The notes under the pieces were generated by a model that saw nothing but the letters and a program-made list of their open reading frames with translations, searched no databases and was not told the DNA's origin. Positions 636 through 61,112 of a stretch of DNA of 64,000 nt are shown here, piece after piece (position 1 is the first letter of the stretch; each line of letters starts with the position of its first letter). The stretch covers positions 21,780,868 through 21,844,867 of the forward strand of contig OX424555.1 of the NCBI GenBank assembly GCA_949152475.1, given 5' to 3'. Made by a program: the position numbers and the translations under genes. The stretch comes from Terebella lapidaria (Eukaryota; Annelida; Polychaeta; Terebellida; Terebellidae).

Positions 636-749
636 TCTCACTTCGTATGCCTGATATGACTTTCTGTCCCCGGACTATGAGATTGGATAACGGACCCTGT
701 TTTGTTTGCTCGGAATACTTGATACTGGGTATTGATTCCACGTCTATTA
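636..749 (+). repeat. 114-bp dispersed repeat, copy 1
   Basis: This segment matches 58474-58587 over 114 bases with one clear mismatch. After base 749 the two copies diverge abruptly. Here the B repeat of the recombinase element begins at 747, while the other copy runs on into diverged array sequence. The sister copy therefore acts as an empty-site comparison that fixes the left boundary of the recombinase element to about 747-750. What the repeat itself is, I do not know. Confidence 0.8.
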
Positions 750-879
750 AACCAAACACCAGATATTGGGACAAGTTTATTATTGAGGCTAAGTAAAATA
801 CATGTTAATATATAAACACACAATACACCGATACAGGTAAATAATGAATAAAACAAGGGACCTAACCCCTTGAAGCCCA
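747..879 (-). repeat. Split direct repeat B2 (133 bp)
   Basis: Identical to 1107-1239 at an offset of 360 bases. It forms the left edge of the recombinase element and begins TTAAACCAAACACC on the plus strand. The sequence to its left matches a sister locus that lacks the element. Confidence 0.85.
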
Positions 880-1059
880 TTAAAGCATTGTATAACTATT
901 GTTTTATACATATATATTGAGGAAGAATTGATAATAATGACCTTACGGGTGGGTGGGACTGGGAGCTGGCAAAATCACAAATGACCAATGCAACATGTAT
1001 GGGCAATGATTTATACAATACCAGTGGGGGGCCCTGAGCACTAAGAGTGGGCTGGTGAG

Positions 1060-1128
1060 CAATATCATGGTGTTTGGTTTAAAGCAAGTTTGCAGGCAAA
1101 CAAACCTTAAACCAAACACCAGATATTG
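1060..1128. repeat. Palindrome around repeat A2
   Basis: The arms 1060-1082 and 1107-1128 are reverse complements apart from a one-base insertion, with GGTGTTTGGTTTAA and TTAAACCAAACACC as their cores. The loop is exactly the 24-base A2 repeat (1083-1106). Such a hairpin could be a recombinase target or a fold used in element circularisation; that role is inference. Confidence 0.8.
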
Positions 1129-1239
1129 GGACAAGTTTATTATTGAGGCTAAGTAAAATACATGTTAATATATAAACACACAATACACCGATACAGGTAA
1201 ATAATGAATAAAACAAGGGACCTAACCCCTTGAAGCCCA
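1107..1239 (-). repeat. Split direct repeat B1 (133 bp)
   Basis: Identical partner of 747-879. It lies 33 bases beyond the stop codon of the recombinase ORF and abuts the second copy of the 24-bp A repeat. Confidence 0.85.
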
Positions 1240-1272
1240 AACCCCAGAGGGGAAAACTGTAGTACTGTTGGT

Positions 1273-2280
1273 TTATTGGATATTATTAGATATATTTTGT
1301 AAAATGTGCCTGGTTTGATCTGATCCAGGTGTTATATATCTGAGCACGCAGTCACTTTTCCAGTCTCCAATGTGTTTGATGACAGCGAGTGGGACTCCTG
1401 ACACCATCATCCAGGTAGCTCCGCCACGTCTCAAGCTGTGCGTTCCATACAGGTGCCCTGCGAGGCCCGCCTCTCGCAGCAGTGCTTGCAGTCGGCGGCG
1501 GACACGGTCCTGAGTCAGGGGTACTATCCCTGAAGAAGAGTGGACTGCGAATAGAGGAGCATCTGAAGGGACTGGACCCGCCACGCCCAAGAATCTCAGC
1601 AAGGCAGAGGTTGGGCAAAGCACTGAGCCCCGGATGACAGGCAGATACACACATAGGGCCCGTTCCTTGTGTTGGATTGTTTTTGTGCCCTTGACGCTGA
1701 TTTTCACACCGTGAGACCCGACGGTGATATCGTTACGCCTGATGGTATTGTTTGACCCGGAGCTGGAGTTGGACGTGACATTGCTTATCCTGAGCAGGCC
1801 ATAGAAGCATGTAAGCAAAGCTGACCACAGCTGAATGTCCGAGGTTGAAGCCATTGGAAGTAGGTTTCGAATTTTCCGGAGTTCTTCAAGTGTCAATGGT
1901 AATTTATATGACTGACCCAAGCCTTTACCACGCTTTATGCCTGATGTGACCATCTTAACCGAATAGTTGTCCTGAAGTGGGTTTGGTAGTCCAATGTCTG
2001 TATGAATAATGCGAACAATGTTCAAGTACTGTTGCACTGTGGTAAAGGACCTGGATCTACCCAGGTAGGCTGCATATCGAGCCAGATTGATGTTTGTCAC
2101 AGGCACTGGGTCACACTTGATGAGGGCACAGAACTTCATGTAGGTATTGAGGTGAGTCCTATAGCACTTCTTCGTGCTTTCTGCAAAGGCCTGGGATCGC
2201 CATTTAGCAACCTCATTGTCCAGTTCATGCAATATTCCTCCCACTTCCGGAACTGTGGGGAGAGAAACGACATTGAACAT
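1273..2280 (-). CDS. Tyrosine recombinase (XerD/DIRS/Crypton-type)
   Basis: This 335-residue protein should cut and rejoin DNA through a covalent tyrosine intermediate, moving its own element in the nucleus. The N-terminal part (about residues 20-115) looks like the SAM-like core-binding domain, including KKCYRTHLNTYMKF. The catalytic domain follows, with R164 in the motif FYGLLRIS, K200 in the motif GTKT, H281 and R284 in HSLRRGG, W307 in HIGDW and the nucleophile Y315 in VLRYI. All expected catalytic positions are present, and the length fits single-domain eukaryotic recombinases. The start at 2280 is the first ATG of the frame; an upstream exon cannot be excluded. The ORF is clearly GC-richer than its flanks, as expected of a recent arrival. 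The HSLRRGG style of motif is typical of DIRS/Ngaro and related recombinases. No reverse transcriptase is encoded beside it. Confidence 0.85.
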   Translation of the reverse strand: MFNVVSLPTVPEVGGILHELDNEVAKWRSQAFAESTKKCYRTHLNTYMKFCALIKCDPVPVTNINLARYAAYLGRSRSFTTVQQYLNIVRIIHTDIGLPNPLQDNYSVKMVTSGIKRGKGLGQSYKLPLTLEELRKIRNLLPMASTSDIQLWSALLTCFYGLLRISNVTSNSSSGSNNTIRRNDITVGSHGVKISVKGTKTIQHKERALCVYLPVIRGSVLCPTSALLRFLGVAGPVPSDAPLFAVHSSSGIVPLTQDRVRRRLQALLREAGLAGHLYGTHSLRRGGATWMMVSGVPLAVIKHIGDWKSDCVLRYITPGSDQTRHILQNISNNIQ

Positions 2281-2362
2281 TTAGACATATGCATTGTCAA
2301 GTCAAACACAACTGGTGCGTAATTCTCGCCCCCATAATAGCAAGTTTGCAGGCAAACAAACC

Positions 2363-3738
2363 CTAATAATCACCTTATTCACGTGTTTGAAAACATATTG
2401 AACGGGATCCGTAGTTTGAATTCACGTTAACCCAAATACACAATGACGCATGGTGTATTTTACTTATTGACATCCTTTGTTCGACCCCTGGGACAGTGAA
2501 AGGACATTCTGGAGATTAAATATTAGTGCTTGCATGTATTTTGTGATTACATTGTACTGCCCACATAATTTTATGTGATACGAGCCACTGCTCATTGACT
2601 TGAGTGACCAATGTCCCACATAACTCTAATGACATTTCTGACCAAGTGAAGTGCCCGAGGGAAGACACAGCCAATGCTCAGAGGTGATTTCCTATGATTA
2701 ATAGGCATGGCACATAATGGTCCATTGAAGATCAATGTAGGGTCTCTAACTGTCGAGGTCATACATGTGTTAGCCACTTTCATGTTCTGAAATATGATAG
2801 TCACTCACAGTTATGAAAATTATACCCTCCATGGGAATTTTCACGGGGAATCGAGTATGAGACATAATCAAATTTAGTGGGTTTTTGTAATTAATTTTCA
2901 AATTTAATTAAATCAATCACACATAATCAAATTTAGCGGGTTTTTAAAATTAATTTTTCATGTTTGGATCCGTTTGAGTACACGTATTTCATTGTGATCA
3001 CGTACAATCTAGGAATCTTGAATATCGAATGTCAAAACTAGGCAATCGATTACTAACAATCACCGACAGCGTGTGAACTTACAAAACCTATAACTAGAAG
3101 ATAATATATCATAAATAACATCAACAGAATCCTATGGGAATACGTGTGCCAGGTTTGTAATGTTCGCGAATGCGTCTATCGAATTGTGTTCATATTGGCA
3201 TGCAATGCTAATATAAATATCCCGTATTGTTAGAAATTTGGAAAAGAAATGCTAGCAGTTTCTATGTGGCAAAAGATTTTGGTAGTATAAATTGCACATA
3301 TTATTTATTGATCATTAGTCACAAGGATCGTGTGTACGACACTTCAGTATTGCAGGGAATCCGCGACGTGTGTTCACGTTGGTATTAGTGTAAACAATGT
3401 AGTCCATAAATCATTTCAGCACAACCCTTGTTGTGGTAAATGTGATATTTCAATATTTACTCTCTCAGTCTGAAGGGTCATGGTAGCTGGGAGGTGCTAG
3501 CTGGGTGGAGAGTGGACGGTTCAATATAACAACTGGATTGATCTTTCGGCGCCATGTAGCACATTGTACTCTACTAATACTACTCACCCTCAGAATGGAT
3601 GCATCAGACCACTATCCGTCTGGCACATTTTTCAATTTTTCATTGAATTTAGAACAAGAATCATACCTGGTGCAGAGCACCAGATCTCCCCGGATACGAA
3701 GCCAATAGCGCGTTCCTGTAACTGTTAAGTCTCTAATT
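2363..3738. other. Non-coding AT-rich stretch
   Basis: No supported gene. Around 2865-2955 a 25-base motif (ACATAATCAAATTTAG and the GGGTTTTT after it) occurs twice in direct orientation about 70 bases apart, separated by AT-rich spacer. Nothing else is recognised. Confidence 0.5.
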
Positions 3739-3843
3739 TAATTTCATGTACATATACGATGCCCAGGTGTAAATTTCATTTCATGTGCATATACGATGCC
3801 CAGGTGTTAATTTCATTCTATGTGCATATACGATGTCCAGGTC
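3739..3843 (+). repeat. Three-copy ~36-bp tandem repeat
   Basis: Three successive units each contain CATATACGATGCCCAGGTG or a one-base variant, preceded by a TTTCAT-rich spacer. A short frame runs through them (3759-4013), but its residues only mirror the repeat. Confidence 0.85.
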
Positions 3844-4110
3844 TTTCTCAATGCAAACGAACGTTTCAATGTAGTCAAACAGTCTTGCATTATAAAGAGA
3901 TGCAATTAATATCACCATCTACATTCGGGTTTTCCGGTTATCTACAACATAAACACCTGGGCAAAAATTGGGCTATGAGATCTGGTGGCAAAGAGATCAG
4001 ACCCATAATTTAATATACAAACATCATCACAAAAAATGGTGACAGCTGGGATTGATACCTGCAACTAATGTCTCCAGTAGTTCCCTTTCCTCTTTGACAT
4101 TTTAATGTCA

Positions 4111-4340
4111 GGCACGTGTGTTGAATCACTAAATGTGAAATCAACGCTAAATGTGGAACCTAATAGTGAATGTGAAAGAACACTAAGGTAAATGTGAAAC
4201 CTAACGGTGAATGTGAATACACACTAACGCTAAATGTGAAAACACACTAACGGTAAATGTGAAACCTAACGGGTGAATGTGAATACACACTAACGCTAAA
4301 TGTGGAACCTAACGGTAAATGTACGGTTCAACACACGTGT
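4111..4340. mobile_element. Small inverted-repeat element filled with a minisatellite
   Basis: The ends GGCACGTGTGTTGAA (4111-4125) and its near reverse complement (4326-4340) bracket about 200 bases of tandem sequence. That sequence is built on CTAAATGTGAAACC, CTAACGGTGAATGTGAA and CACACTAACG blocks. Terminal inverted repeats around an internal minisatellite are a common MITE structure. I could not identify a target duplication, so mobility is inferred. Confidence 0.6.
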
Positions 4341-5109
4341 CGCTACATAATCGCGGTTTTTTTATCCAACACATTTGTTCGTCTTCCATTTGTCACAATA
4401 TTCCATCAATATCCTAATGGCTTTGACATTTGTGCCAGGTGTCACAATACTGTAGTCAATGGATGGCTCTGTGCATCTTTAGAAATCTGAGCGTGACTTA
4501 AACCCTTCTGTAGGGTATATTATTTCCCACAGTTCTACCATGATAATATATATCCGTAGATGACATGGAATGGAAACATGCTCATGTTTTAACATTCAGA
4601 AGTTACTGGGGCGTCGACGTGATTTCCTACATGACAATTTGGCAATGCTACGTGCATGGCTCTTTAGTTCATTACCATTACTATTTCATGGTCAAAATGG
4701 TGCCGCTTCAACCACTAGTAACGCCAGTCATAAGTCTGCTGCCAAAGTCGAAAAAACAAGAACAAACAAATCTGTTTGAGCAGATATTTCATCGGGCGAA
4801 GCTGTTGAAAAATCTGTAGATATGAAGTGTGTGTGAACAGACGTCCTAAGACTTTAAAGCCAATACACATTAGGCGATATTATCGGCGATAAGCGGGTAC
4901 GATATTATCGGCGAGCATGATCGCCGATGGAAAACCGGGTTACGATGTTATCGCTGATCCTCTGGGAACATGTCGCAGCGTTCTAGACAGTCTTGAATTC
5001 TGCGATATTATCGTCGAGAATTCTAGAGTTCAGCCAATTGCGGGCCTTCAAAATGTCACGTGATATTATCCGCGCAAAGCTTGAAATGCGGCGTGCCACG
5101 TGTGTAAAC

Positions 5110-5275
5110 ATGGAGTGGACGAGGCAGAAAGAGGACCTGTTAGTTCAGGAGTGTACACGAGAATCGTCCAGTATTCGTTCCTAAAAGAGTACAACAATAG
5201 AGATAAGAACAGGAGGGCATGGGTGGAGGTGACCGAAGTCCTTGGAACGACGTGACCAAACCCAAAAATCCGCCT
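5110..5275 (+). pseudogene. Broken MADF/Myb-like DNA-binding frame
   Basis: Starting at ATG 5110 the frame reads MEWTRQKEDLLVQEC and stops about 25 codons in. A shifted frame just downstream (from about 5185) reads KEYNNRDKNRRAWVEVTEVL. Together these resemble the start and the KNRRAWVEV-type helix of MADF or Myb/SANT-like domains found in PIF/Harbinger accessory proteins. The break is a premature stop plus a frame change, so this is a fossil of an accessory transposon gene. Identification rests on motif resemblance only. Confidence 0.5.
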
Positions 5276-5391
5276 ACATCCAAGTGTGTGGAATGTGTAG
5301 AGATAGGCCTAAAGGGGCATGTCATTTGATGCAGAGATCAGCTGCTAGGCCTGCGCGGTGTTTATATAGTGCATGTATCTCGCTCTGCATG

Positions 5392-6143
5392 CAGTGGCGG
5401 ATCCAGGATTTTCATTGGGGGGGGGGGGGGGGGGAGCACTGAACAGCGTTGTAGCATAATTTTTGTAAGAGGGGCACAAGCGAGCTGAAACATACGGTCC
5501 GGGATTTAGGTTGGTTCAGTACTACTGTAGTGTTCTGGATTCAAAGAGTGAGAAAGTTTTCGTTTTGGGCTCTGTGTGCATATGTCCATGTGCATTTCCA
5601 TAGGAATACAATTTTTCGAGAATGTACAGTCGAAAATATATTTTTTGGTCAACTGAAAAATCCACCTCACAATTTAATTTGCAAAGTTGCTAGATCTGAT
5701 GCATTGCATTTTTACAAGCTTCAAAGCTCACGAAAGTAATACATACTTCATCCCCACCCTTTTTGTAGGGGGGGGGGGGGGGAGCTCACGAAAGTAATAC
5801 AAACTTCATCCCCACCCTTTTTGTAGGGGGGGGGGACATCCTCTCTATTAATTCGATCGTACTATGTTTCTATGGGGTCCGACCAACTCCAGATCTGAGA
5901 GTTGGTCCCACATCAAAGTGTTTATAGGCCTATATAGGCCTGGACAATCGGTTTCCAATGGTCTTTTTGTTTTGCGTGATTCCGGTAAAGTAATCTGTAG
6001 GTAACATGTCATATTACACCACGGTAATCTTTGTGTATGTGCCGTAGCCTATCGATTTTCGTTACGGTCATTTTTTTCCCCAACTTTGAGGGAGCCATGG
6101 CTCCCCGTGCCTTCCCCACCCCTCCACTCTGGATCCGCCACTG
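5392..6143. mobile_element. 752-bp hAT-like element nested in the 2.7-kb transposon
   Basis: The termini are CAGTGGCGGATCCAG (5392) and its reverse complement CTGGATCCGCCACTG (ending 6143). The flanks TCTGCATG (5384-5391) and TCTGCATA (6144-6151) match at 7 of 8 bases. A CAG...CTG terminus with an 8-bp duplication fits the hAT superfamily. The element contains two G tracts and a local duplication (5712-5834), and no transposase frame is visible. Confidence 0.85.
5712..5834 (+). repeat. Local ~63-bp duplication ending in G tracts
   Basis: The block AGCTCACGAAAGTAATACA followed by ACTTCATCCCCACCC and a TTTTTGTAGGGG run occurs twice in tandem inside the hAT-like element. Slippage at the G tracts is the likely origin. 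Confidence 0.8.
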
Positions 6144-7564
6144 TCTGCATATGCCTATACATGCATCTAATCCATCATCTTTCCATGTCCTACCCTGTGT
6201 TTGCACTTCAAAGTAATATCCTGTAGATATTTGTGTTTAACCAAGGATTTTCCCACGAAAATAAATAAACAGTTGAGAGAATAAATGAATGAGATCGCCG
6301 TACAGTATGGATGCGGCTCGTTCGGCTCATTTGGCTATAATACACACCATCGCTAAAACATTTTCGCCACTGCAAGAAAACATTATTGTTTTATTTATTT
6401 GAGTTAATTTATTTTGTTTCATGGGTGTTAGTTTCACAGTATATCGCACATCATGACGAGAACCGAATATTTAGATATTTAGAGAATATTGTATGACCAA
6501 ACCGGGAATATGCACTTCAAATAATTCGCTAGGAGCAAAAATATACATTTCGGTATTTTGCTCAGGATTGAGTTATTTGCTGGAGAAACATTTTGTGTTG
6601 AATTAAAATAATGGTAGAATTGGTTATATTATATAGCAGCAAATATATCTACACTGTTTATTCATGTGTTGTAGGTATATGATCTTTTGATCATACAATA
6701 TTTTCCTTATCATTATGCATTCCCTATCTTGTGTTTGATTGGCGGGGCGCATGACTTACGTCATTCGGAAAATACTCATTTTTATTTGGAGGGGAATATT
6801 CTATTACCTGTGAAACATGTTCTTTCATTTAATAACATCGTAAGAGGCGACTATTTACTCAATGAATAATAATCACTTATGCTCCACCTAATATCCACTC
6901 CTTGCCCCCCCCCCCCCCCCCCGTCATTATTTACTTCTTAATTGTATAATTGCATTTCCTTTCTCTATTTATAAGTTATATAGGGATAAACCTAACAGCA
7001 GCATACACTGAAAAACAGGCCTAGGCTGCTGGAATTTTGTATTTTTTTTGTAATTTTGGCGCCAAGATTTGATCACATGACAAAGCAGGTGTAAACACGA
7101 GTATCACACTTGTTGCAAATCATAAAATGTAGGAATATCAGGGTGCGCCTATATGTGAATAATAGTTTCAGTCGGAAAATTATAGTCTCTCAGTTATAGG
7201 CGCATGCGAATATAATGCGATATAGACGCATATTCATCACTTATAGACCCATGCACCTGCATAATCATCACGGCACATGTACATGACACCCAATTTTGGA
7301 CATTACAATATATAAACGTCTTCTCCTCTGATACCACTTGCTGGAATTTTCGGAAACTTTGTATATTGATACTATGGGATAGTCCCCCACAAACTTGTCT
7401 TTTAGAATTTTAAATTTCTCCTTTATTATTTTTTGGGGGCGTCATCATGTTTGTAGCCGATAATATCGCCTGATGTGTATAAGAAACATCGCCGATAAAT
7501 TAATCGCCGACAATATCGCAGCTACATATCGCCGATAATATCGCTTAATGTGTATCGGGCTTAA

Positions 7565-16344: not shown

Positions 16345-17398
16345 AGGCCATGAAAATATTCAACAAATATATCACTTCTAGTATGTCCACAATTGATTCC
16401 TAAGCTGTAAAGTCGATAATAAGTGAGATATTAGCAATTCTGTGATGTGACCTTGAAAATGAGGTTCAAGTTCAAGGTCAGGAGAACAACTTATCAATAG
16501 TCAATTTCCCTTTTCTAAGCAGCAACATTCCTATGTCACCGGCATATGGTGTGTTTGTTTCTCAACTTATACGCTATTCCAGAGCTAGTTGCGAATATGA
16601 GGACTTTGTCTATCGAAGTGCCCAGCTAGTCTCTAAACTGCTGCGACAAGGATATATTATACCAAGATTTATAGCTTCGTTTAAGAAATTCTATGGACGT
16701 CATCATGATCTGGTTGAGAAATACACCAAATCCATGTCTGCCATGCAACTAGATCTATTTTCATGTTAACTTTGGGGAATTCATGACGGGTGCCACTAGT
16801 GTCTATTCAGCATATATCATTTCCTCTATATTCGCAATTGATTCCTAAAGTCGATAATAAGCGAGATATTAACCATTTTGTTCTCTGACCTTGAAAATGG
16901 GGCAAAGAACAAATTCTATATTACCAAAATATTCAGCATACATCATTTCCCATATGTTAATTATGGACTCCTAAGCTGTAAAGTTGATAAAAAGCGAGAT
17001 ATAAGCCATTTTGTGCTCTGACCTTGAAAATAAGGTGACTGACCTTGAAATTTAGGTCAAAGGTCAAATTCAAGGTCATGTAAAAAATTTGTATATATCA
17101 TTTCCTGTATGTTCATAATTGATAAGTAAGCTGTGAAGTCGATAATACGTGAGATCTCAGCCATCTTGTCCCGTGACCCTGAAAATTATGTCAAAGGTAA
17201 AATTCAAGATCATGAGAATATTCGGCATATATCATTTCCTATATGTCCACAATTGATTCCTAAGTTGTAAAGCCGATAATAAGCGAGATATTAGCCATTT
17301 TGTCCTCTGACCTTGAAAATGAGGACGAAGGTCAAATTCAAGGTCACAAGAATATTCAGCATATATCATTTCCTATATGTCCTCAATTGATTCCTAGT
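16345..17398 (+). repeat. AGGTCA-rich ~145-bp tandem repeat, interrupted
   Basis: Five degenerate units carry the order ATATATCATTTCCTATATG, TCCACAATTGATTCCTAAG, GTCGATAATAAGCGAGATAT, CCATTTTGTCCTCTGACC, TTGAAAATGAGG and TCAAATTCAAGGTCA. The first unit is separated from the others by an RT fragment at 16496-16776. Repeats with this AGGTCA-rich style are familiar from marine invertebrate genomes, although I cannot name the family. Confidence 0.8.
16496..16776 (+). mobile_element. Reverse-transcriptase C-terminal fragment, copy 1
   Basis: The frame through 16769 reads SIVNFPFLSSNIPMSPAYGV, then FVSQLIRYSRASCEY, KLLRQGYIIPRFIASFKKFY and GRHHDLVEKY before the stop. YGVYISQLIRYSRAC followed by a KLLxQGY helix and an FKKFYGRH segment is the C-terminal signature of reverse-transcriptase proteins that are abundant in molluscs, lancelets and corals. 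Only about 90 residues are present; the polymerase domain is absent. A second copy at 58101-58382 has the same two boundaries in a different flank. I take it to be a LINE-type remnant; the exact class is not certain. Confidence 0.6.
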
Positions 17399-20635: not shown

Positions 20636-23600
20636 TCAATAATAATATACTAATACACCAGTATTTTCATAGCGCTCTATCATTAGTGTATCAGAGCGCT
20701 TTACATACACGCTGGAGAACCAGTCCGCTAAACCTGGGTTTGGTCAGCACATCCTGGGGTTTGCAACGAACATCCTTCGAGAAAAATGGCGGCCCCCATG
20801 AGCGAGACAGTCGCGACTCGAAAGTAAAACACTGACATGGAGGATAAAATAACGTACCATACCAAAATCACTTCGCGCAGTATTGATAAGGATGCTCGTA
20901 AGTAGTTAACAGCGGAGTAATTAGGGTGCGATAATGCAAGAAATTGTGGAAAGCACGGTTTTGAGGCGAACACGTTGTTGCAACGCTTAACCTGTGGGCA
21001 ACGCTAAACATGGGTATATAATCAAGCTTTGAATTATGTACACTGCGGCCGGCCATCCATGAGTACATGTACCGAATGCACGCAATAAGTGTCGCGCCGT
21101 AATGCTCGTTCTTGGGCATTTAGACATTTTCGGAGATGTCCATTGCAGTTTGCCCAGAACATATTTCATATTTCTAATTAAATATTGGCCCTGAACAGCG
21201 AACAATATTTTCTTTCTCATTAAAATTTCTTTCCAATTAAAATCGAGGAATATAAATTAATAAAATTTTTCCACATGTTCATTCAATGATTAAATACAGT
21301 GATATAAACTTATGAAGGTTTGTTTTATTCAAAATTATCAGTTGAAGCCACCGTGTTTTCCCTGCATGCTTGTTTCTGGTATATAGTCTGATAATTAGCT
21401 TTGTATAATCCAACTTGGTTATTAAACATAAGTTACATAATTTATGTCAGTTTGCCATATTATAAAGGAATAAATCACAATCATCATGGTAAAGCGTCCT
21501 TCCAAAACGGTCCAGGACCATTTTGGTATGCTTAAGTTTGCCCTGAACCCTCTCGAGATTGTCCAAATTTCCAAGAATGACAAATGTATGTAAAATGCAC
21601 ATAGGCCCTACAATATTTTTTTATGGCAGCGGAGCTTTAGCGATGCCGTGTAGTCGACAACTGTAGTCGTCAACTTTTGGTTTTTTCTGTGGTCAACTTT
21701 CATGACTTTTGGTTATCTGTATTCGTCCACTTTTGGCTATCTTTACAGTTTTTGCTCGAAACATTCATTCACATTTTGCATGAAATGCCTAAAAGACTTT
21801 TTTTTTCTTCATAATTTGAACTGCCGCAAGTACATGTATACTCATAGAATGCTTGAAAATAAAGCCTAGATATTGGCATTTCAAATGGGAAGTCGTATAT
21901 GATTATTTTTCTAGTAAGCTTGGATTTGACCTTCTGAACTTTTGTAGCGGAGCGCTCAAGGCCGAGAGGCCTCTCGTATTATAACGGAATCCTAACCGTT
22001 ATGAAAAAAATGTCATGTAAAACACCTAGAGTTGTAGTGTTTTGTGGTTTTTTTTTTTTTGCAGTTGTGTTGTATGGGGCCCAGATATACGTCGGATGGA
22101 CGTTTAATGCCGGCACATAGGGCTCCTGCGTGAGAGTCACTTGAATATTGTGATGATTGTAATAATAATGGTATATTGTGTGGCCCTTATCTTGACATCA
22201 TACTATCAAACGAGGATATAAAACCCTAAAGTCTACAAATATCAACATTGACCTAAATATATATTGGCAAAATATATATCTTGCCACGCGCACTTCTCAT
22301 TCTCCTTCTTATTTCACGGCACTGTATTTTCAAACATGAACACATGGTTGGCGGTTTGCTGCCAAAAAGTGGGTAAACCACGTACCATCACTGCATAGGT
22401 TTACTACGTCCCGCTTGCTCTTGCTCCTGGTTGTATACAGTGTACATACCGCCGACTTACTCGCTAGTCCGGACAAACAGACTAACTCAATCAGATTTGA
22501 TGTGGTCCTCCATAATATAAAGACACAAATAAAATTCCATGGTTCCGTGGATTAGCGTTGCAACCCCAGGTTTGGCGTTGCACAATCACATCGCTATCGA
22601 TATCCTGGTAGTTTTACTAATTTCATCATATATTTTATGGTATATCCACTTTAAGTTACATGATGGGTGTTTGAACGATAAATGTACACTATTTTAAACA
22701 AATCCTTGATGTTTATTTGCCGTTTGAGTGGTGTTTTCATATTGTCGTCGCCTCAATGTTGTCGTCTTGGACACAGGATGCGCGCACAATACACCCAGAA
22801 TGTTCGTTGCATAACCCAGGATGCGCCAACCGAACCCAGGTTTAGCGGACTGATTCCCCAGCGTGACATAGAAAAGGAGATAACTACACACGTATACATG
22901 TATACAAAAGACAAAAAGAATAACATATAGGGTATTTAAAACCAACACAGAAAGAATAAAAAAAACAAGTTGACTAGATTAAGATGAGTACAGTAGTCAT
23001 TGTCCATAATACATAGTGAAATAATGCGTCTTCAGAGCTGTCTTGAACACACTGGCTGATTTCGACGAGCGCACGTATTTTGGAAGTGCATTCCACAGGA
23101 AAGGTCCACAATATCTGAAGTCCCTGGATCCGATGGACTTTCGAGTAGGTGGTAGAAATAACAAAGTGTCATCAGAAGATGAACGAAGTGTGCGACTTGG
23201 TGTTATCGAGAGACCATGTCACGTAGGTATACTGGTGCAGTGCCATTGATACAGTTGTATACATGAACCATTAAGCGTAATTGTATCCGGAGATGAATTG
23301 GAAGCCAATGAAGGCTTCGTAATACCGGAGTGATATGGTCCCGAACTTTTGATCCAGTGATGATGCGTGCAGCTCGGTTTTGTACCAACTGAAGCCTACT
23401 GATCAACTCCGATGGAACACCGTAGAGGAGGGAGCACGCATAGTCCAGCTTTGTCATTACGAGACTCTGGACGAAGGTGCGACAAGCAGATACCGAGATG
23501 TATCTTCTTATACGACTTATCCCGTAGAGGTGAAAATTGCACGTTTTGATGACGCTGGATACATGTGGAGACATATCCATGTGTTCATTACAGTATATGC

Positions 23601-23640
23601 CGAGATTCCTCACAGTATGAGATGAGAGAGATATGCGATC
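20636..23640 (-). mobile_element. 5'-truncated CR1/L2-type LINE, split by a foldback element
   Basis: On the minus strand the LINE runs 23640-22866 and resumes at 20707, ending near 20636 in an ATTATTATTG-type tail after GTAAAGCGCTCTGATACA, a 3'-UTR style usual for CR1/L2 elements. The 5' end is cut inside the reverse-transcriptase region, as expected from incomplete reverse transcription. It interrupts array unit 0: array sequence on the left stops at CAGTGTCTCCCCG and resumes at GATCCCTCGGTATCCACGG. Units 1 and 2 have no insertion at this place. Confidence 0.8.
20708..22865. mobile_element. 2.16-kb foldback DNA element inside the LINE
   Basis: About 65 bases at each end are inverted copies at roughly 85 per cent identity, including CAGTCCGCTAAACCTGGGTT and GCAACGAACAT. 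Both ends start CACGCTGG. ACATA lies immediately outside both ends (20703-20707 and 22866-22870), giving a 5-bp target duplication. A second, weaker inverted pair with CAACGCTTAACCTG-type and CAACGCTAA motifs lies further in (20975-21013 and 22550-22590). No transposase frame was found. The family is unassigned. Confidence 0.75.
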
Positions 23641-23657
23641 CCTCGGTATCCACGGAA
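23203..23657 (-). pseudogene. LINE reverse-transcriptase C-terminal fragment (CR1/L2-like ORF2)
   Basis: The frame continues upstream of its first ATG (23613) as RDRISLSSHTVRNLGIYC. It then reads YGISRIRRYISVSACRTFVQ, KLDYACSLLYGVP, LQLVQNRAARIITG, DHITPVLRSLHWLPI and GTAPVYLRDMVSR, ending at 23203. The LQxVQNRAAR and ITPxLxxLHWLPI blocks are the C-terminal signature of CR1/L2/Jockey-type LINE proteins. The endonuclease and polymerase catalytic domains are missing through 5' truncation, so it cannot be autonomous. The surviving frame has no internal stop over about 136 codons, which suggests a young insertion. The first few codons in this span may already be host sequence. Confidence 0.85.
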
Positions 23658-24790
23658 CCTGTTTCAGCTGCAGCCCCGCGTCGTCATGGAATCTCGTGCT
23701 AACAAATATATCCTCCTCCTTACAATTTAGAAAAAGCTAATCAAGGCCTACGATTTACAATTCATCGTGGCGTACAATTTCTAACAATGGATCCATATAC
23801 TCGTGGCAGTTACACGTTGTGAGCAAATGAACAAATATCATTCGACATGTACCATTGGCTTTCAAAAAAAAACTCGCATTCGTGACAGCTTGACTAGTAT
23901 CGTATCAGCCAAATTTCGTAACCAACACTGATAAGTTGTGTCCACTTTGTTGCATGCCCAGTATCAATCAAATGCAAACATACAACCATATATATCTGTA
24001 AATGGCCGCATCTGAACTAGACGATTCGGTCGCCGTCGAATGCGTGGGTGTATCCCCCTGGGGCCCTATCATCCCCATTGCCCAAAATATGTTAATTTAA
24101 AATATCATTATTGCCAGGCCAGTGTGTTTCATTGATATCAGTAATGAAAGTTTCGTTTCATTTCATGTAGTAGCACTCATAGCAATTAATATATTCATTT
24201 AACTTTTCTATTTTTCACCAAATACTTTCCAGAGAAACTTGCTCACAAGACTGGGTTACGAAACACTGCTCAATCCCTCAACATTATGGGTACAGCCATG
24301 AAGTCTCTACTGGATACAACCGTTATACCTTGTTGAGACCAATGATGATTGTTCCTATTTTTATTGTGGTCAATAATAGACTTAACTAGTAAAACTAATG
24401 TTAACTTCTTCGCTTACAGTCATGAAATCTCTACTCGGCAGACTCGTTGAGCCCAATAATAAATGTTTTCTTATCTCAACTATTTCTTTATCTTTTGTTT
24501 ATTGTTGTTAATAACAGACGTAATTTAATATAATGGTAATCGGTTCAGATTTGCAATCTATGGAGCGTTCACAAGAAAGTGTCTGCGGAAGCGGATGCGG
24601 CACAATGATCGCAAATCCACAGTATCCGCCGACCTTCGATCGGGGGATACAATGACTAGGCAGGACAGGGTTCATGATGAATATTCTACTCATTCACCCA
24701 ATGCATGGTCATTCACCCAATGCATGGTCGAATGATGTCCGGTAACTGCTTGCTTTGTTCAGTTATTTCTCATCACTCCCGCTTGTATCG
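23641..24790 (+). repeat. Array unit 0, continuation right of the LINE
   Basis: It follows unit 1 from about 33510 to 34530: CCACGGAACCTGTTTCAGCT, GCAGTTACACGTTGTGAGCA, CCCCCTGGGGCCCTATCATC, GGGTACAGCCATGAAGTCTC and ACAAGAAAG. It keeps the sequence from GGGGGATACAATGACTAGG to the minisatellite that units 1 and 2 have lost. Confidence 0.85.
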
Positions 24791-25029
24791 GCTTCATGAA
24801 AACGGAGGTTTTGGCATTCTCCGTACGACACTGTCATCTTTCTGAGGTTTTGGCATTCTCCAAATGGTACTGTCATCTTTCTGAGGTTTTGGCATTCTCC
24901 ATATGCCATTAACATCTTCCTCAGGTTCTGGCATTCCCCATATGACATTGTCATCTTTCTGAGGTTTTGGCATTTTCCGTCTGACATTGTCATCTTTCTG
25001 AGGTTTTGGCATTCTCCATATGCCACTAA

Positions 25030-25726: not shown

Positions 25727-26821
25727 TTAATATATTTCTCAGGTTCTGGCATTCCCCATATGACATTGTCATCTTTCTGAGGTTTTGGCATTCTCCGTCT
25801 GACATTGTCATCTTTCTGAGGTTTTGGCATTCCCCATATGACATTGTCATCTTTCTGAGGTTTTGGCATTCTCCATCTGACATTGTCATCTTTCTGAGGT
25901 TTTGGCATTTTCCATCTGACATTGTCATCTTTCTGAGGTTTTGGCATTCCCCATATGACATTGTCATCTTTCTGAGGTTTTGGCATTCTCCATCTGACAT
26001 TGTCATCTTTCTGAGGTTTTGGCATTCTCCATATCACATTGTCATCAATCTGAGGTTTTGGCATTTTCCATCTGACATTGTCATCTTTCTGAGGTTTTGG
26101 CATTCCCCATATGACATTGTCATCTTTCTGAGGTTTTGGCATTCTCCATCTGACATTGTCATCTTTCTGAGGTTTTGGCATTTTCCATCTGACATTGTCA
26201 TCTTTCTGAGGTTTTGGCATTCCCCATATGACATTGTCATCTTTCTGAGGTTTTGGCATTCTCCATCTGACATTGTCATCTTTCTGAGGTTTTGGCATTC
26301 TCGTTATCACATTGTCATCAATCTGAGGTTTTGGCATTTTCCATCTGACATTGTCATATTACGTGGATGCATAATGAATATCTTTAGAGGCTTCACAGTT
26401 AATGTAACCAAAGTTTATGGGTACAGAACGCGGTGAGTCTCCGTATCACCATCCAGTCGGTTTAGGTTTTGGCGCATCGAGAGTATATTTTAAGTCCCGC
26501 GAAAACATTTGCCTCAAAATCATACACACCAGGGAATGGGTGTTGCTCTAACTTGATTACCTATGTCGATGCCATGAGAAGTGGGTGTTTCTCGAATAGT
26601 TTTGTGACCTTGGAGTGAGATTAGATTACTGACCAATGTATAAGACCCGTGATGTGTAATTCTAACTGACCAAACAGTGGTGGTTAAGGCAAAAATACAT
26701 TCGGCGAACGTATTATGTAAAAACTCATGAAGATATTCATTAACTGCTGTCCTGAATTATGTTTTTAATGTATATATCAAAGCACGTTCAAGTAGTCAAC
26801 TTGAACGTTGACCTAAAAAAT

Positions 26822-50139: not shown

Positions 50140-50316
50140 TTGGCACTATCCGTACGGCATCTTTCTGAGGTTTTGGCATTCCCCATATGACATTGTCATC
50201 TTTCTGAGGTTTTGGCATTCTCCATCTGACACTGTCATCTTTTTGAGGTTTTGGCATTCTCCATATCACATTGTCATCAATCTGAGGTTTTGGCATTTTC
50301 CATCTGTCACTGTCAT
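50140..50316 (+). repeat. Short paralogue of the 39-bp minisatellite
   Basis: One degraded and four recognisable units. Their types run in the same order as the last four units of the 24.8-26.4-kb array (CCCCATATGAC, CTCCATCTGAC, CTCCATATCAC with CAATCTG, TTTTCCATCTG), and both arrays end at the same TGTCATATTACGTGGAT boundary. Confidence 0.9.
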
Positions 50317-57899: not shown

Positions 57900-58060
57900 A
57901 CTTGTCACCGAGCAACTTGTCATCCAGTAATCAATGTTCACGGCTCATGATTGATAAGAGAGGTTATATAAGAGAGGTTATATGATAAGAGAGGTTACAT
58001 GTCACCGAGCATCCAGTAATCAATGTTCACGGCTCATGATTGATAAGAGAGGTTATCAAT
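57900..58060 (+). repeat. Local duplication of array-like sequence
   Basis: GCATCCAGTAATCAATGTTC, ACGGCTCATGATTGATAAGA and GAGGTTAT occur twice, with three extra AGAGAGGTTAT units between. It resembles the start of the R1 segment (CCGTAATCAGTGTC, TGATGCTTGATAAGAGAGG) and so is probably a remnant of the array. Confidence 0.8.
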
Positions 58061-58100
58061 CCGAAACAATTTGTGGACAAATTGATGATTTCAATTTTTC

Positions 58101-58382
58101 CATAGTCAATTTCCCTTTTCTAAGCAGCAACATTCCTATGTCACCGGCATATGGTGTGTTTGTTTCTCAACTTATACGCTATTCCAGAGCTAGTTGCAAA
58201 TATGAGGACTTTGTCTATCGAAGTGCCCAGCTAGTCTCTAAACTGCTACGACAAGGATATGTTTTACCAAGACTTATAGCTGCGTTTAAGAAATTATATG
58301 GACGTCATCATGATCTGGTTGATAAATACAGCAAATCCATGTCTGTCATGCAACTAGATCTATTTTCATGTTAATTTTGGGG
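58101..58382 (+). mobile_element. Reverse-transcriptase C-terminal fragment, copy 2
   Basis: The frame reads SIVNFPFLSSNIPMSPAYGV, FVSQLIRYSRASCKYEDF, KLLRQGYVLPRLIAAFKKLY and GRHHDLVDKY, with the stop at 58374. An upstream ATG (57982) extends the frame but into unrelated sequence. It agrees with copy 1 at about 95 per cent, and the two share both edges. The polymerase core is absent. Confidence 0.6.
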
Positions 58383-58473: not shown

Positions 58474-58587
58474 TCTCACTTCGTATGCCTGATATGACTT
58501 TCTGTCCCCGGACTATGAGATTGGATAACGGACCCTGTTTTGTTTGCTCGGAATACTTAATACTGGGTATTGATTCCACGTCTATTA
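58474..58587 (+). repeat. 114-bp dispersed repeat, copy 2 (empty-site comparator)
   Basis: Near-identical to 636-749. Here the sequence runs on from CGTCTATTA into TATTAACTCACAGCGATCCC, without the recombinase element seen at the other locus. Confidence 0.8.
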
Positions 58588-60541: not shown

Positions 60542-61112
60542 TGACGGAGCCGCTGAAAGGACATGGAAGAAATATTTCTTGACATATGGTTATTGCGTTC
60601 CCTCGCAATAATATTGCGTTCCCTCGCGATCTTATTGCATTCCCTCGCGATCTTATTGCGTTCCCTCGCAATCCAGATCGCGTTCCCTCGTGATATAATC
60701 GCGTTCTCTAGCGATCTTATTGCATTCCCTCGCAATATTATCGCGTTCCCTCGCGATCTTGTAGAATAACCTTCTCAGAAGTCATTGGCGTCAGCACAAT
60801 GCGAGGGAACGCGATCCAGAATGCAAGGGAATGCGATAATATTGTGAGGGAACACAATAATATCGCAAGGGAACGCAATAGTATCGCGAGAGAACGCGAT
60901 CTGGATTGCAAGGGAACGCGATCCGGATTGCGAGGGAATGCAATAAGATCGCGAGGGAACGCGATCCGGAATGCGAGGGAACGCGATAATATTGCGAGGG
61001 AACGCAATATTATTGCGAGCAATATTATTGCGAGGGAACGCAATAATATTGCAAGGGAACGCAATAACAATGTGCTATAAATATTTCTTCCATGTCCTCT
61101 CAGAGGCTCCGT
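60542..61112. mobile_element. Foldback element packed with 20-bp GAACGC repeats
   Basis: The arms begin TGACGGAGCC and share GGACATGGAAGAAATATTT in inverted orientation (60542-60579; 61079-61112). AGAAAA stands outside both ends (60536-60541 and 61113-61118). Inside, the left arm repeats ATTGCGTTCCCTCGCAATA-like 20-mers and the right arm repeats the complement. Long open frames through this segment (for example 60738-61070 minus and 60799-61080 plus) read as ARERNNI or SLAILLR runs and are repeat artefacts. Confidence 0.85.

Follow-up and report, generated by a model that had tools for sequence, protein, structure and literature searches.

Can a mobile unit keep the split direct repeats of a Ngaro- or PAT-like retroelement and carry nothing but a tyrosine recombinase (YR), or has a simpler recombinase transposon come to look like one? 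The question is raised by a locus near the start of the 64-kb stretch of Terebella lapidaria contig OX424555.1 analyzed here (the window), where a sequence-only reading had described a recombinase and two repeats, A and B, in the order A1-recombinase-B1A2-B2, with identical repeat copies and no reverse transcriptase (RT). We found this order on the minus strand, with A1 at the right (2339–2362) and B2 at the left (747–879). The locus is probably a 1.6-kb piece of mobile DNA, a retroelement reduced to its recombinase or else a pair of simple recombinase transposons in tandem.

Read along the minus strand, the element runs A1, YR open reading frame (ORF), B1A2, spacer and B2, and the full unit measures 1,616 bp; the earlier figure of about 1.1 kb in all holds for the stretch between A1 and B1 and falls short of the whole. 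The 24-bp outer 5′ repeat A1 is followed by a 58-bp leader (2281–2338), with an in-frame stop immediately before the ATG, and by an intact recombinase ORF of 335 aa (1273–2280). B1 (133 bp, 1107–1239) and A2 (24 bp, 1083–1106) are linked by TTAA in a site that resembles a circle junction, and a 203-bp spacer (880–1082), which the sequence-only reading did not describe, separates A2 from the 133-bp outer 3′ repeat B2. B1 and B2 are the same throughout (133/133), as are A1 and A2 (24/24, or 27/28 once the next four bases are included). Exact repeats in the first 5 kb reach 133 nt, against a maximum of 16 in 100 first-order Markov simulations. A short part of A is not unusual taken alone: its first 14 nt, allowing two mismatches at most, occur twice in the window, a count that was also reached in 6 of 100 shuffles. 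YTAA is found at three places, as TTAA at the left end and at the B1/A2 junction and as CTAA at the right end. The signal AATAAA lies on the minus strand at the end of the ORF (1277–1272), in B1 (1141–1136) and in B2 (781–776), and the first two could terminate a transcript upstream of A2 and B2. The YR is the sole ORF of at least 130 aa inside the unit, and no gag or RT gene is present among the ORFs of 747–2362; the recombinase stands alone, as had been claimed. We also considered the spacer as a TTAA-bounded insertion of its own (TTAA at 880–883 and 1079–1082), an idea set aside when inspection by eye found no inverted repeat between its two ends. Compared with the remainder of the element, the spacer shows no prominent shared sequence other than an inverted B end.

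The YR ORF exceeds the longest stop-free stretch in 1000 simulations of the region (335 vs 248), and its G+C is 0.49 compared to 0.38 in the flanks. Its product matches Phage_integrase PF00589 (1.5e-7), the PHROG 1 integrase (2.4e-15) and the sequence of Cre in the PDB (1.6e-8), while its NCBIfam matches are under their curated cut-offs. The alignment with Cre covers residues 29 to 322, and the frame is complete from ATG to stop. A predicted model, built with 29 viral relatives, has a mean pLDDT of 89.0 and a pTM of 0.81; compared with the PDB it finds Cre structures best (first row E 1.7e-13, TM 0.67 and 0.71, rmsd 4.7), and the best named viral match is a phage integrase. In a 30-row alignment R164 and H281 are invariant, K200, R284 and Y315 are nearly invariant, and W307 occupies the H/W position. 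We take R164, K200, H281, R284, W307 and Y315 to be the catalytic R, K, H, R, H/W and Y of tyrosine recombinases, in agreement with the earlier statement that the expected residues are present. Judged from its sequence and model, the protein is a Cre-like tyrosine recombinase with all six catalytic residues and is predicted to be active. DUF3504 is not among its three Pfam matches at E up to 1, a search run without a Crypton positive control, and on this basis the YR is not that of a typical animal Crypton.

The left edge of the element is marked by a second sequence. Positions 636–749 (forward strand) match 58474–58587 within the window at 99%, and the copy at 58474–58587 lacks the YR element. 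Several window alignments begin at 58586, the start of a local repeat family, and the match at the second copy stops there, so that the matching sequence is the 3′-terminal part of a dispersed repeat ending at ~58585. In the first copy this 3′ end is followed immediately by B2. The left edge therefore lies where a repeat that also occurs in an element-free copy has its 3′ terminus, and is defined independently of the element's own repeats; support of this kind exists for the left side only and not for the right edge. The dispersed repeat, which is the insertion target and lies outside the element, has the look of a 5′-truncated LINE-type copy, we infer. Two further stretches, 58092–58382 and 16487–16777, are 95% identical copies of a sequence covering the end of a frame at 57958–58374 that has no Pfam match above cut-off; this sequence probably belongs to the 3′ part of the dispersed repeat seen at 58474–58587. 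Of the copies at 636–749 and 58474–58587, the first has the YR element only a few bases from its 3′ end, a position that could reflect chance or a target preference.

A further feature beyond those described earlier is found where the spacer meets A2. The spacer opens there with a partial inverted copy of the outer 22 bp of B, with one extra base (1060–1082, plus strand), of which 1068–1082 is an exact 15-bp inverted copy. When up to two mismatches were allowed, TTAAACCAAACACCA was found three times in the window, each time without a mismatch (once in each B copy and once inverted at the spacer start), and three occurrences were reached in none of 100 shuffles. Because the spacer begins with the inverted B end, the end of B1, A2 and the start of the spacer form a 69-nt hairpin over the circle-type junction, an imperfect palindrome at 1060–1128 with A2 at its centre. 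Folded as single-stranded DNA, 1050–1138 reaches −22.8 kcal/mol compared to −8.08 (sd 2.04) in shuffles (z −7.22), with 0/200 shuffles as stable. The RNA fold of the full 747–1239 has the same hairpin (z −2.91, 0/100 shuffles), and an RNA fold showed no comparable hairpin near A1 (z +1.36). By complementing the joined ends, the stretch recalls the ICR of DIRS1 (PMC3266345), though here it lies within a split-direct-repeat layout; it is possible that the hairpin is a by-product.

Searches for copies and relatives gave little. The 64-kb window holds no second copy of the element, which makes a discrete mobile family a candidate at most. The scanned viral and prokaryotic contigs, where one would scarcely look for a eukaryotic family, contained no copy either, and single-protein YR scans of viral contigs and prokaryotic genomes found no relative. 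Phage records yielded two weak matches to the YR (27.8% and 23.8% identity). Viral contigs did not contain the exact A or B pattern, and an exact 19-mer of A occurred in 7 prokaryotic contigs, which we judge to be chance level (~4 expected by our own estimate); TTAAACCAAACACC was found exactly in 0/53 loci, those 7 contigs included. A profile scan identified 44 viral relatives among 176 pattern matches, and an RT profile matched none of the 12 records tested from those 44. A crude RT motif scan matched 5 of the 53 loci, none of them RT-like by eye. Outside the unit, gag and RT remnants were sought as open frames only, the longest in 2363–7000 being 94 aa, and a further five ORFs or frames in the window have no Pfam match above cut-off. 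The Chlamydomonas element TOC1 may likewise combine split repeats with the lack of an RT. It does not occur among the matches listed from open PMC papers, and no title among those listed announces a YR-only element with split repeats.

Elsewhere in the window, 26434–56226 consists of nested tandem duplications with units of roughly 7.6–9.2 kb that are ~90–98% identical. Arrays of a 39-bp minisatellite lie at 25735–26357, 24805–25022 and 50158–50316, the first of which is open in frame on both strands, with an MPKPQKDDN-type peptide repeat on the minus strand, and a minisatellite with 21-bp and longer units in both orientations lies at 60590–61067. A 177-aa open frame at 23203–23736 has no Pfam match above cut-off; we take it to resemble the end of a LINE reverse transcriptase.

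We tentatively favour, at somewhat less than an even chance, that the element is an RT-less, non-autonomous derivative of a split-direct-repeat YR retroelement lineage. A single mobile unit of ~1.6 kb would have inserted, its own Cre-like YR joining the A1 and B2 ends to the target at a short YTAA core with no longer target duplication, and A1-YR-B1A2-spacer-B2 would be the remainder after gag and RT/RH were removed from the Ngaro order. An autonomous relative would supply the RT that copies the element's RNA, and the outer ends would be restored from the internal B1/A2 junction as template. Circularisation of the cDNA would create a B-YTAA-A junction, and inserting the circle would fall to the YR. 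The order, here with identical copies, is that of published split-repeat elements, some of which have repeats that are 100% identical (PMC6681497, PMC8547959). The YR gene is intact and Cre-like with its catalytic residues kept, its lack of a DUF3504 match is reportedly shared by DIRS and Ngaro YRs (PMC3212892), and the left edge is marked by the dispersed repeat, whose other copy is free of the element. YR retroelements with deletions have also been described, such as the Cafeteria Ngaro type 2b without ORF1 (PMC8547959), and a fungal survey (PMC3783388) reports YR retroelements that are mostly short, truncated or incomplete. That survey, together with the one copy in 64 kb, would also suit a full gag-RT-YR retroelement that inserted and later lost its front, leaving a dead copy that was never mobile in its present form. 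This seems improbable given that the ORF is complete and aligns with Cre from 29 to 322, that the repeats are undiverged and that A1 is merely 58 bp from the ORF. That short distance, with a tidy stand-alone ORF and no obvious deletion scar, also tells against derivation from a longer retroelement in general, as do the AATAAA signals, which could stop a transcript before A2 and B2, and the A repeat of 24 bp, which is short next to the 73 to 414 bp in the parts of the VIPER/TATE tables of PMC6681497 covered here.

The sequence-only reading overlooked that the same order arises from two YR units in tandem, each running B...A. Here, two YR DNA units would lie side by side with no RT involved, and the split-repeat order would be a by-product. 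The first, B1-YR-A1 (1107–2362, 1,256 bp), would be a recombinase-only DNA transposon moving as a circle, and the second, B2-spacer-A2 (747–1106, 360 bp), a non-autonomous derivative sharing these ends and integrated at the terminus of the first. TTAA-B...A-YTAA does bound both units, and the first amounts to a small, complete gene, with one AATAAA close to the stop codon and another in B. YR-only DNA transposons do exist in the form of Cryptons and their non-autonomous derivatives (PMC3212892), SIRE corresponds to the A2..B2 part of VIPER in T. cruzi (PMC6681497), and Cafeteria carries solo AB repeats (PMC8547959). However, the authors leave the mobility of SIRE undecided and attribute the solo AB repeats to recombination between repeats, and besides Cryptons we saw no YR-only animal transposon in the portion of the literature covered. 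Two adjacent units would also have to carry 157/157 identical end bases, and their common A end is just 24 bp, whereas a non-autonomous Crypton has 438 and 260 bp in common with its parent element (PMC3212892). We regard this arrangement as possible, with the balance tilted against it. A recombinase gene beside an unrelated TTAA-bounded MITE (747–1082) with short inverted ends, plus chance repeats, is very improbable; 747–1082 does have inverted ends and TTAA on both sides, but the identical 133-bp B1 and the A1/A2 repeat would go unexplained when chance repeats reached 16 nt at most in 100 simulations. Taken together, the repeat identity and the Ngaro order lean towards an RT-less retroelement, and the short A, the self-contained gene and the AATAAA signals lean towards two tandem units. 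Both have parallels in PMC6681497, PMC12278014 and PMC8547959, in full split-repeat retroelements for the former and in SIRE and solo AB repeats for the latter.

The distinction matters for how these elements may have arisen. One proposal is that YR retroelements unite an LTR-type element and a Crypton, and more than one origin has been suggested for split repeats (PMC4157794). A split-repeat unit with a YR alone would either be a parasite of YR retroelements that is mobilised in trans or serve as a model for the stage preceding RT capture. We consider it unlikely, though worth stating, that an RT-free YR DNA transposon made both the split-direct-repeat layout and the self-complementary circle junction through a tandem short derivative. 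If this were true, three circles of ~1,616, 1,256 and 360 bp would be released and the folded single-strand junction could be offered to the recombinase, and the locus would show a possible Crypton-like origin of Ngaro/PAT split repeats before RT capture.

Among known systems, DIRS1-like elements share with this element an internal sequence matching the complement of the joined ends (the ICR in DIRS1) and a short core, 3 bp in DIRS1 and YTAA here. They differ in having inverted terminal repeats, whereas the long repeats here are direct and RT is absent; inverted terminal repeats paired with an ICR were not found, the sole inverted part being the 22-bp B end beside A2. Cryptons are alike in that the YR is the sole protein; those of fungi and oomycetes have direct repeats of 4 to 6 bp at the termini, to which TTAA at the left and CTAA at the right of this element may correspond. 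According to PMC3212892, however, animal Cryptons are without terminal repeats, unlike the 133-bp and 24-bp repeats here, and DUF3504 was matched by the YRs of three CryptonA elements and not by those of DIRS and Ngaro. The earlier suggestion of a Crypton that evolved such ends agrees with the YR being the sole protein, and is weakened by these repeats and by the missing DUF3504 match (again with no Crypton positive control). SIRE, the short form of VIPER in Trypanosoma cruzi, is an A2..B2 unit like 1106–747, whose A and B are separated by ~30 bp specific to it, compared to 203 bp here; whether SIRE is mobile or a remnant is left undecided by its authors (PMC6681497). PAT-like elements (Pat1, TOC, kangaroo) share the split direct repeats, and differ in their gag, RT/RH and methyltransferase ORFs, none of which is present here. 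With gag and RT missing we do not file the element as Ngaro or PAT. Compared to Ngaro it also lacks RNase H, has an A of just 24 bp and carries an inverted B end in its 203-bp spacer, but it shares with Ngaro the A1-...-YR-B1A2-B2 order, the identical repeats, the position of B1A2 downstream of the YR and an intact YR gene.
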